NCBI RefSeq assembly: GCF_002156965.1 | Contig: NZ_CP021324.1 | Coordinates: 468,988 to 532,987, forward strand | DNA: 64,000 bases | Source of the DNA: Candidatus Nitrosomarinus catalina | GTDB lineage: Archaea; Thermoproteota; Nitrososphaeria; Nitrososphaerales; Nitrosopumilaceae | Direction of reading: 5' to 3' | In this document: one piece after another, positions 57,005 through 59,527 of the stretch | How positions within the stretch are numbered: position 1 is the first letter of the stretch | Layout of the letters: every line of letters starts with the position of its first letter | The notes under the pieces: model-generated | The model's input: only the letters and a program-made list of their open reading frames with translations | Databases searched by the model: none | Told to the model about the DNA's origin: nothing | Position numbers and translations under genes: made by a program

Positions 57005-57080
57005 GTCTATATCAAATTTTTATTAGATTTTAAGATATGTGTAAGAATCATTTTTAATCCCTACGGCATAATCTTATCAA

Positions 57081-58364
57081 ATGGTCTTTGGATGGGGTAA
57101 AAAAAAGCAAGTGGAAGAGCAACCTGTTGAACGTAAAAGTGTTAATCAAGACATTGAACTTTCTGAAGTTCCTCAAATTATCAATGATTTACGTAAATTA
57201 AGAGAATCTCAAACCATTTCGGAAATAAAAAACTTGAGAAATGATACTGCACCATTAATTGATGATCTTATGAAAATTGGAATTGTTTTAGAAAAAGATG
57301 ATCTAAACATTGATGACATTGATAAGCACTTGGCAATAATTGTGGTTAGAGGAAAGAAGCAAGTTATTGATATTTTAAAAAAAGATGTCAAAACATTAAT
57401 TCAAGTTTCAACAATTGAGGATGCAAAAAAATTAGATTATTTTCTAACTCAATTATTAAAAAAAGTTGGTGATGTTTTGGGTAGACAAACTAGAGTCATC
57501 CATATATTTGCAAAAAAATACGCAAACCAACTAACTACTAATCTAAAAATTATGAACGAAAATTCTGATAATATTACAAAACTTCTAAAACATTTTGATT
57601 CAACTCAATCTAGTTTTGATGAAATTGATGAAATGTTAAGTAAAATTAATTCTCTCAAACAAGACCGCATTGACAAAACAAAACGTAATGCTGAGATACA
57701 AGAAAATTTAAAATCTCTACAAGAAAGAAGCACTTCTCTAAAAAAGTCCCTTGATGAAATTCATACGTCTGAAAATTATCAAAAATATGTTTCATTACAA
57801 AATGAACTCAATGATTTCATGAAACAAAAATCTAAAATTAAGTCTGAAATAGACGCTCAATTCACAAAAATTTCTCGTCCACTTGGTAGATATGCATATG
57901 CTTCTTCATTAGATAAGGAACAAACCCATATTTTGTCTACTTTGGTAGATAATCCTTTTGATGCATTAATCGCTGAAAATTTAGATTCAATAATTTTAAT
58001 TTTAGAAAATATTCGAAAAGGCATTACTTCAGGTTCTATATCCGTTAAGGATACTCAAAAAACATTATCTCAATTAACTGAAACTGAAGAATCCTTGGAT
58101 GGTTTTATAAAAAAAGTGTCTGAATATTCTACTGTTTCTGATTCTATGCAAGTGGAACTCAAAAATTTAAAACCTCAGAACTTGACTTCTACTGAAAACG
58201 ATATTTCAAAGACTAGTGAATCTGAAAATGATGAACGCCAAAAATCTAAGACCATTTTATCTGAAATCGGTGAAATAGATTCAGAAATACCTAAACTCAT
58301 ATCTAAGATAGAGGGTAAATTACAAATTTTTTCATCGACTCGATATACTATCTCAAAATCTTAA
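57081..58364 (+). CDS. Long coiled-coil protein
   Basis: The 427-residue protein begins MVFGWGKKKQVEEQ and is helical throughout. Heptad-rich parts lie at about 170-260 (IDKTKRNAEIQENLKSLQER, KSLDEIHTSENYQKY) and near 330-420. It has no membrane segment and no catalytic motif. It may be a structural or scaffold protein. It lies 30 nt before the JAMM gene and may be co-transcribed. No named family is recognised. Confidence 0.7.
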   Translation: MVFGWGKKKQVEEQPVERKSVNQDIELSEVPQIINDLRKLRESQTISEIKNLRNDTAPLIDDLMKIGIVLEKDDLNIDDIDKHLAIIVVRGKKQVIDILKKDVKTLIQVSTIEDAKKLDYFLTQLLKKVGDVLGRQTRVIHIFAKKYANQLTTNLKIMNENSDNITKLLKHFDSTQSSFDEIDEMLSKINSLKQDRIDKTKRNAEIQENLKSLQERSTSLKKSLDEIHTSENYQKYVSLQNELNDFMKQKSKIKSEIDAQFTKISRPLGRYAYASSLDKEQTHILSTLVDNPFDALIAENLDSIILILENIRKGITSGSISVKDTQKTLSQLTETEESLDGFIKKVSEYSTVSDSMQVELKNLKPQNLTSTENDISKTSESENDERQKSKTILSEIGEIDSEIPKLISKIEGKLQIFSSTRYTISKS

Positions 58365-58394
58365 ATTTATTTACCAAGTAATTACACTGTTCTT

Positions 58395-58817
58395 ATGTTT
58401 TTTAAAAATAAAAAATTTGAACGTAAAGTCTTACTTGATAAAAGCGTCTTAGACAGTATTGTCACATTTTGTAAAATGAAACATCCTAATGAAGGAATTC
58501 TCATATTGAAAGGTAAATCTAAAAATGGTCAAATCAAAATTGATGGACTAGCTATTCCTCCCTTTAATTTTACAGGTCCTACATTTGCAGGATTCCCGCA
58601 CTCTTTTTTGCCATTTGATAATAGCTATATTGGAGTTGTTCATTCTCATCCGTCTGGTTCAGCTGAACCTTCTGTAACTGATTTGAATAATTTTTTTGGT
58701 TTGGTTTCTTTAATTATCCAATCTCCTTATGATGATGATTCCATTTTTGCATGGGATAGTAGTGGAAATACAATTCCATTATCCATAAATGATGAAAATG
58801 AAACTGAGAAAAACTGA
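58395..58817 (+). CDS. JAMM/MPN+ metalloprotease
   Basis: The 140-residue protein has a full JAMM zinc site: Glu33 (HPNEGILIL), His83 and His85 (VVHSHPSG), Ser93 and Asp96 (PSVTD). Archaeal JAMM proteases cut ubiquitin-like SAMP or Urm1-type modifiers; other roles are possible. Its N-terminus MFFKNKKFE is basic and aromatic. It lies between a coiled-coil gene and a zinc-ribbon membrane gene on the same strand. Confidence 0.88.
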   Translation: MFFKNKKFERKVLLDKSVLDSIVTFCKMKHPNEGILILKGKSKNGQIKIDGLAIPPFNFTGPTFAGFPHSFLPFDNSYIGVVHSHPSGSAEPSVTDLNNFFGLVSLIIQSPYDDDSIFAWDSSGNTIPLSINDENETEKN

Positions 58818-58846
58818 CAAAGCTTTATAACCTTTTTTAAGGGACT

Positions 58847-59200
58847 TTGATTGGTTTGAATCCTCAATTAAAAAAATATTATATTTTCCTTGGTGCCTCA
58901 CTTGTATTCAGTATTGGTCTGCAAATAGTTCTAGGTTATCTTGGTGTTCCTTGGTTCATTAGCATTGGGCTAGTGATGGCAATTTTCATCTTACTTCCAA
59001 TGTATATGAGAAGACGTCAAATGGGACAAATGGGAAATTATGGCGGTAGCTCTAGTGGTGCTGGAGGTGGATTCTTTGGAAGTGGTGGAGGACAAAGTGA
59101 TTCAGCTAATGTTCGCTATGTCTGTCTTGTTTGTAACAACAAACACAAAGGTGGTTCATGTCCCCGCTGTGGTTCAAAAATGCAAAGAGCAGATTTTTAG
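58847..59200 (+). CDS. Two-helix membrane protein with C-terminal zinc ribbon
   Basis: Two membrane segments (about 10-30 and 34-52) are followed by a Gly/Ser-rich linker (GGSSSGAGGGFFGSGGGQ) and a zinc ribbon (CLVCNNKHKGGSCPRCGSKM). The ribbon should face the cytosol. TTG 58847 is the start given the TATA-like element ctttataa about 25 nt upstream; TTG 58856 is an alternative. It may tether the JAMM neighbour (inference). Confidence 0.7.
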   Translation: MIGLNPQLKKYYIFLGASLVFSIGLQIVLGYLGVPWFISIGLVMAIFILLPMYMRRRQMGQMGNYGGSSSGAGGGFFGSGGGQSDSANVRYVCLVCNNKHKGGSCPRCGSKMQRADF

Positions 59201-59209
59201 GATAATAAT

Positions 59210-59527
59210 ATGACTTTAGAAGAATTAAGAAAAAAAGCCCTATACCAAAACTCCATTGAGATTTGGATTGGAATAAGTGAGGAGAAAAAACTAGACTGGG
59301 TTAACACTGATAATTATCAAAAGTTTATTGCATTTCTCTTAAAGAATGAACTAAACATGAAACAAATGACAATTTGTTTTGATGAATCAGATAATGCATC
59401 TTATGGTGGTCACAGCAAAAAAGTATTTGCTAATAATCTGGCTGCAATCAATGATGTAAATTCACACTGCTATTCGATTAAATTGAAGGACAGTGCAATT
59501 GAACTAATTCGAAAGTTCGAACTCTAG
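59210..59527 (+). CDS. Hypothetical protein, 105 residues
   Basis: The soluble protein begins MTLEELRKKALYQNSIEIWI and has alternating strand and helix segments (QMTICFDESDNASYGGHSKK, NSHCYSIKLKDSAIELI). It follows the zinc-ribbon gene by 9 nt and is probably in the same transcript. No family is recognised. Confidence 0.6.
   Translation: MTLEELRKKALYQNSIEIWIGISEEKKLDWVNTDNYQKFIAFLLKNELNMKQMTICFDESDNASYGGHSKKVFANNLAAINDVNSHCYSIKLKDSAIELIRKFEL

Follow-up and report, generated by a model that had tools for sequence, protein, structure and literature searches.

The window analysed here is a 64,000-nucleotide (nt) stretch of the genome of Candidatus Nitrosomarinus catalina (contig NZ_CP021324.1, positions 468,988–532,987). 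At positions 57081–59527 it carries four open reading frames (ORFs) on the + strand, CC, JAMM1, ZNR and X4, which encode a long helical protein, a predicted zinc peptidase, a membrane zinc-ribbon protein and a small protein with no assigned function. The four genes stand in this order and on one strand in 65 of 80 named loci of relatives (the best 80 of 175 loci), which argues that the arrangement is not due to chance. In the favoured reading, given a probability of about 0.4, ZNR tethers JAMM1, a dedicated peptidase, to the inner membrane face, and CC serves as a scaffold in Nitrosopumilaceae. It builds on the observed gene order, JAMM site, hydrophobic anchor and distribution of the genes, from which we infer complex formation, location and substrate. 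A full-text literature search, with most subscription journals outside its scope, found no paper on this gene set.

JAMM1 (58395–58817, + strand, 140 amino acids (aa)) is a predicted zinc peptidase of the AfJAMM (JAMM/MPN+) type. A Pfam scan puts it above the cut-off (Prok-JAB, 2e-12, 47.4 bits, cut-off 25), whereas CC, ZNR and X4 have no match that high. Residues E33, H83, S84, H85, P86, S93 and D96 are present and the protein fits the E-x(n)-H-S/T-H-x7-S-x2-D pattern; the complete site E33, H83, H85, S93 and D96 lies exactly where a sequence-only reading of the window had placed it. The catalytic residues are invariant in all 22 aligned rows, at identities down to 33%. The nearest solved structure is that of Archaeoglobus AfJAMM (AF2198; PDB 1oi0, 1r5x; profile E 3e-22), which has the same motif and aligns over nearly the whole length; the next distinct protein is at 7e-6. 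The source organism of AfJAMM belongs to another phylum. No substrate of AfJAMM is named in the opening of the abstract of PMC300881. A PADLOC search returned nothing beyond generic JAB hits for JAMM1 and weak, apparently coiled-coil hits for CC. One relative (G014) has a second JAMM1-type gene (L031:5547–6381), and a small ORF upstream of it ends within its reading frame; by eye, a small protein resembling the product of that small ORF also lies near JAMM1 in L043 and L047.

The ORF coordinates bear out the four co-directional genes with gaps of 9–30 nt described from the sequence alone: the CC/JAMM1, JAMM1/ZNR and ZNR/X4 gaps are 30, 29 and 9 nt with the ZNR start as first annotated. ZNR is a real ORF on the same strand, but that start (58847, 117 aa) is doubtful; relatives point instead to the TTG at 58856 as the probable conserved start, since those of the same form begin with NPQLK and have a CTTTATAA box at a fixed distance upstream. 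Among relatives, the N-terminus is NPQLK in the window's form and MFNYK in others.

The named relatives put the window in or near Nitrosopumilus. CC is followed by JAMM1 in 78 of their 80 loci, and the 15 loci without the full set, of which several are truncated at the end of a contig, comprise six CC-JAMM, five CC-JAMM-ZNR, two CC-JAMM-X4, one CC-X4 and one CC alone. Median intergenic distances are 31, 76.5 and 9 nt, and in three loci an insertion of more than 1 kb separates JAMM1 from ZNR. The sequence-only reading had been staked on conservation of gene order, and with the order kept in 65/80 loci the objection it had allowed for falls away. Other genera of the same family (f1, identified as Nitrosopumilaceae from the named relatives) contribute 14 loci (L081–L094), nine with all four genes in order, one without X4, two with CC-JAMM and two with CC alone, some at contig ends. 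In a sample of 250 genomes of the class, CC was matched in 144, X4 in 182 and ZNR in 181; the JAMM profile matched in 222, an upper bound, as it also catches a second JAMM discussed below. A separate JAMM1 search matched 79 genomes, G023 and G034 only at the 1e-4 level. In a further family (f8, probably Nitrososphaeraceae), L370 and L377 carry JAMM1-ZNR-X4 with order and strand unchanged. An MCM/AAA-like ATPase gene follows them in both loci, and in L377 an XPG/FEN1-type nuclease gene comes next; a gene of the latter type adjoins ZNR in L371 and, by eye, in L372. JAMM1-ZNR-X4 would thus be the older set, perhaps an old one of ammonia-oxidising archaea, with ZNR-X4 as its tightest pair and CC as an addition in Nitrosopumilaceae.

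ZNR (58856–59200, + strand, 114 aa) comprises two hydrophobic segments, a Gly/Ser linker, a C4 zinc ribbon and a conserved C-terminal tail. It alone of the four proteins reaches membrane-grade hydrophobicity (Kyte–Doolittle 19-residue maximum 2.46, against at most 1.17 for CC, JAMM1 and X4), and RRR follows the second segment. The two segments and the C4 ribbon support the membrane-anchored zinc ribbon proposed earlier. ZNR may be pictured as the anchor of a complex, presenting or positioning a substrate for JAMM1 at the inner membrane face.

CC (57081–58364, + strand, 427 aa) is a helical protein of no known family. Its predicted structure (mean predicted local distance difference test (pLDDT) 86.8, predicted template modelling score (pTM) 0.62) has a helical base, a stalk made of a 93-residue helix and a return arm, and a tip at about residues 265–317; the large coiled-coil neighbour of the sequence-only reading is thus recognisable in the model as a long two-way stalk. 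The N-terminal tail MVFGW is invariant in 62 rows. Mean column conservation is 0.99 for residues 1–9, 0.93 for 128–151, 0.79 for 251–330 (the tip) and 0.56 for both stalk arms; the conserved base and tip, set against a variable stalk, suggest a spacer that binds at both ends, which in Nitrosopumilaceae would serve as the scaffold of the complex. A hairpin stalk with a distal tip is shared with the coiled coils of SMC, Rad50 and the dynein stalk, whereas the ATPase head of SMC and Rad50 is absent from CC and the similarity is generic to coiled coils. SMC/Rad50 membership was rejected: the models match inner stretches only, at 11–17 bits against cut-offs of 729–1087. A profile search of solved structures returned only a designed helical protein. 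In fold comparison, the best Foldseek E was 0.035 and the best VIA match had a Z of 11.2 over 78 residues; long helices commonly give scores of this size, and CC is therefore not assigned to any family.

Despite the short gaps, the upstream sequences argue against a single operon, since CC and ZNR each have their own positionally conserved TATA-like box. The box before CC, TTTTTAAT (57051–57058, + strand), corresponds to TTTA[AT] from −28 in 68 of 80 relatives. The TATA box CTTTATAA before ZNR (58823–58830, + strand) was scored in 54 relatives, of the 70 ZNRs found, and every one has a TATA-like word from −32. Before JAMM1 lies a less regular AT-rich, TATA-like stretch, TTTATTTA (58366–58373, + strand); in the 62 relatives scored, the region from about −35 to −22 is AT-rich, with few exact TATA words (8/62 at the best position). 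No positionally conserved TATA-like box was found upstream of X4 among the relatives scored. From these patterns, the likely transcription units are CC, JAMM1 and ZNR-X4, and the distance of the boxes suggests that the transcripts are probably leaderless. The JAMM1–ZNR insertions mentioned above, of about 1.0 to 2.4 kb, lie at the boundary of two likely units; judging from the X4 positions, they belong to L128, L137 and L139.

The sequence-only reading also suggested that the system could remove ubiquitin-like tags or trim a partner. For trimming, ZNR offers a candidate site, GGFFG, described below. Deconjugation of such tags by JAMM1 is possible, whereas a part in the maturation of ubiquitin-like proteins (Ubls) is weakened and better assigned to a second JAMM of the same genome. 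This protein, JAMM2 (L187:3825–4265, minus strand, 146 aa), is PfJAMM1-like (5lda, profile E 1e-17). JAMM1 shares the JAMM fold and catalytic motif with the desampylases HvJAMM1 and PfJAMM1, but their relative in this genome is JAMM2; JAMM1 lies far below the cut-off of the desampylase model NCBIfam NF041370 (23.1 bits against 130) and is not tied to Ubl precursors. The model is a strict one, since JAMM2 (60 bits) and four JAMMs linked to E1 genes (62–85 bits) also remain below 130, though all far above JAMM1.

Only two proteins of the genome match PF02597, Ubl-E1 (L185:3413–4735) and Ubl-Cgi121 (L186:2263–3036); each is a fusion in which the Gly-Gly lies internally, and the model detected no free mature Ubl. 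For each fusion, all 30 loci returned by the searches keep the internal Gly-Gly when scored with a looser regular expression (20/30 and 7/30 with a stricter one). Thaumarchaeal Ubl-Cgi121 and Ubl-E1-TBP fusions were described in 2010 by Makarova and Koonin, whose emphasis, in the available portion of the paper, is on a Jab–cytidylyltransferase neighbourhood (PMC2948915); that portion ties neither fusion to one of the two JAMM types, and both fusions were found again here. In Deinococcus, DRJAMM cuts a MoaD-MoaE fusion and thus provides a case of a prokaryotic JAMM maturing a fused Ubl (PMC8832034, available portion). By analogy, the fused Ubls should need a protease to free their Gly-Gly, and in Nitrosopumilus JAMM2 is the better candidate for such a DRJAMM-like job on Ubl-E1 and Ubl-Cgi121. 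Further Ubl fusions with an internal Gly-Gly occur in G069 (L355:297–1136, with a phosphoribosyltransferase domain) and G064 (L308:170–700, with an unidentified stretch cut by the locus end).

The distribution of the two JAMMs was compared in 40 distant relatives (G060–G099), hand-scored for Ubl tails after Gly-Gly and for each JAMM. Of these, 35 were scorable (G068, G070, G073, G077 and G081 had no scorable Ubl), 14 with a precursor Ubl and 21 with mature Ubls only. JAMM2-like genes are present in 14/14 precursor genomes against 6/21 mature-only genomes (Fisher test, p = 1.8e-5), and AfJAMM-like JAMM1 in 11/14 against 13/21 (p = 0.46). The borderline genomes G074 and G075, with one and three residues after Gly-Gly, were counted as mature; moving both to the precursor group gives 15/16 against 5/19 for JAMM2 (p = 9e-5) and 12/16 against 12/19 for JAMM1 (p = 0.49). 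JAMM2 was sought with a single query sequence, and the matches in G063, G067 and G090 are distant (E about 4e-10) and may form a subgroup; counted as lacking JAMM2, they leave 11/14 against 6/21 (p = 0.006, the strictest recount), and dropped altogether, 11/11 against 6/21 (p = 1e-4). These p-values overstate the number of events, since genomes of one family are not independent, and the contrast appears inside a single family only in f9. JAMM2 occurs without JAMM1 in seven genomes, including G061, G067 and G090 with precursors; JAMM1 occurs alone in twelve, and all eleven scorable ones have mature Ubls only. Mutual complementarity of the two JAMMs was considered and rejected, as the counts in the 40 genomes (both 15, JAMM1 only 12, JAMM2 only 7, neither 6) are close to independence.

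Gene neighbourhoods point the same way. A JAMM2-like gene adjoins Ubl and E1 genes in L296, L297 and L299 (G063, G067 and G090) and an E1 gene in L298 (G070), and these four E1-linked JAMMs are nearer to JAMM2 (50–84 bits) than to JAMM1 (27–34 bits). By eye, no Ubl or E1 gene stands beside JAMM1 among its neighbours in the window and in the 15 loci listed, one of which is a same-genus paralogue. Distribution and neighbourhood together, good but not final evidence, move the maturation role to JAMM2 and leave JAMM1 with another substrate. Most likely, JAMM2 matures Ubl-E1 and Ubl-Cgi121, and JAMM1 would cut a specific substrate belonging to its gene set or surroundings rather than the Gly-Gly of the fused Ubls.

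X4 (59210–59527, + strand, 105 aa) is predicted to be a small alpha/beta protein (pLDDT 89.9). The searches gave nothing in Pfam, nothing convincing among PDB sequences and no Foldseek match at E 0.001, though such missing matches do not show that the fold is new. No clear fold match emerged: in the comparison with the winged helix, the best Z was 3.5 (root-mean-square deviation 3.0 over 54 residues), and several DNA-binding rows reached Z 2–3.2. Two main types, of which the window has type A, alternate among the relatives, with about 84–85% identity within and 47% between types (12 sequences of each). On the CC tree, the X4 type requires at least 15 changes over 61 rows, with eight loci of other types left out; 200 shuffles gave a mean of 19.8 and a minimum of 14. 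For ZNR, encoded just upstream, the type of membrane segment needs only 4 changes over 69 rows, against a shuffled mean of 22.8. In the close pairs L101/L102 and L161/L163, DNA identity in 50-base steps is 84–100% in the flanks and 44–82% in X4 and the following step. The limits of the exchange lie at the ends of the gene, and the alternation of types is almost random on the CC tree. The pattern resembles repeated replacement of this one gene, or else a two-type polymorphism maintained over a long time; second X4 copies, present elsewhere in G010, G033 and G053, are a possible source.

Several findings weigh against a peptidase complex built from all four proteins, and most of them can also be read in favour of plain synteny, in which slow genome rearrangement in the lineage has left the genes side by side without any joint function. 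CC and ZNR have the TATA-like boxes of their own described above. CC, JAMM1 and the ZNR-X4 pair are lost separately: genus g41 keeps ZNR and X4 adjacent without JAMM1 and CC (its genomes G193 and G211 are 0.8 Mb in size, and the single JAMM match in G211 is weak, 1.6e-8). JAMM1 occurs without the other three genes in many distant loci, and in L035 and L379 X4 follows JAMM1 directly, ZNR being absent from its usual place. No JAMM was seen near CC in the five f8 loci read. Among the matches listed, 14 f8 genomes have positions for both X4 and JAMM1, which lie within about 2 kb of each other in 6 and apart in 8. X4 type and neighbour residues show no clear co-variation, CC and ZNR being just above the 95% shuffle limit and JAMM1 below it. 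With G063, G067 and G090 dropped, JAMM1, too, leans towards precursor genomes (10/11 against 13/21, p = 0.11). The neighbouring genes DppC and DppB are also kept, as synteny alone would have it. However, the JAMM1-ZNR-X4 order is common to two families despite different flanks, and the three loci with insertions of more than 1 kb between JAMM1 and ZNR still keep ZNR and X4 together, which makes the neighbours-only account rather doubtful.

A role of JAMM1 as a membrane-tethered deconjugase that removes SAMP- or Urm1-like tags at the membrane, with JAMM2 maturing the precursors, appears unlikely. Ubl and E1 genes are present in the genome, 81 of 100 relatives have E1-type matches, JAMM1 has its complete catalytic site, and described archaeal JAMMs act on Ubl linkages (PMC8832034, available portion). 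JAMM1 does not track the Ubl-precursor status, however, and stays at 23.1 bits in the desampylase model. In G060–G099, among the matches listed, JAMM1 and E1 are never within 250 kb on one contig; many of these pairs are on different contigs, so this settles nothing, and the missing linkage is weak evidence in any case because archaeal Jab genes rarely adjoin Ubl genes (PMC2948915, available portion). Another substrate could be ZNR itself, whose linker contains GGFFG (59066–59080, + strand), a candidate cut site for JAMM1 by its sequence; cleavage at GG|FFG would free the soluble zinc ribbon from the membrane in the manner of a sheddase. The motif is kept in 69 of 70 ZNRs (in the remaining one the reading frame stops before it) within a Gly/Ser linker of variable sequence and length. 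A looser form, GG followed by two large hydrophobic residues and G, recurs in three of four f8 ZNRs read and, among the JAMM1-bearing loci read from the family's other genera, in 11 of 13. JAMM enzymes are known to cleave after the Gly-Gly of Ubls, and GG is gone in both of the g41 genomes read that lack JAMM1 (RNFFG, SNFFG). These two genomes count only once, as they come from one genus; JAMM1 is present without the strict motif in L090 (DGFFG) and L378 (GGSMFG), L376 of f8 has no motif, and FFG is better kept than GG and may be a binding motif. On balance, such cleavage is improbable. An extension of it, a JAMM-based release switch without Ubl in which the GGFFG cut frees a zinc-ribbon effector into the cytoplasm and X4, probably co-transcribed with ZNR, acts as a polymorphic partner or sensor, is a long shot.

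The gene set is conserved more widely than could be seen from the window sequence alone. Archaea of the Nitrosopumilus type rank with the most abundant marine cells and, to our knowledge, little is known of their regulated proteolysis. Telling the two JAMMs apart makes the question of the AfJAMM-type substrate directly testable, with a candidate substrate and site named, and yields the clear prediction that JAMM2 matures the fused Ubl-E1 and Ubl-Cgi121. The exchange of X4, limited to one small gene within a conserved cluster, may mark an interaction under conflict.

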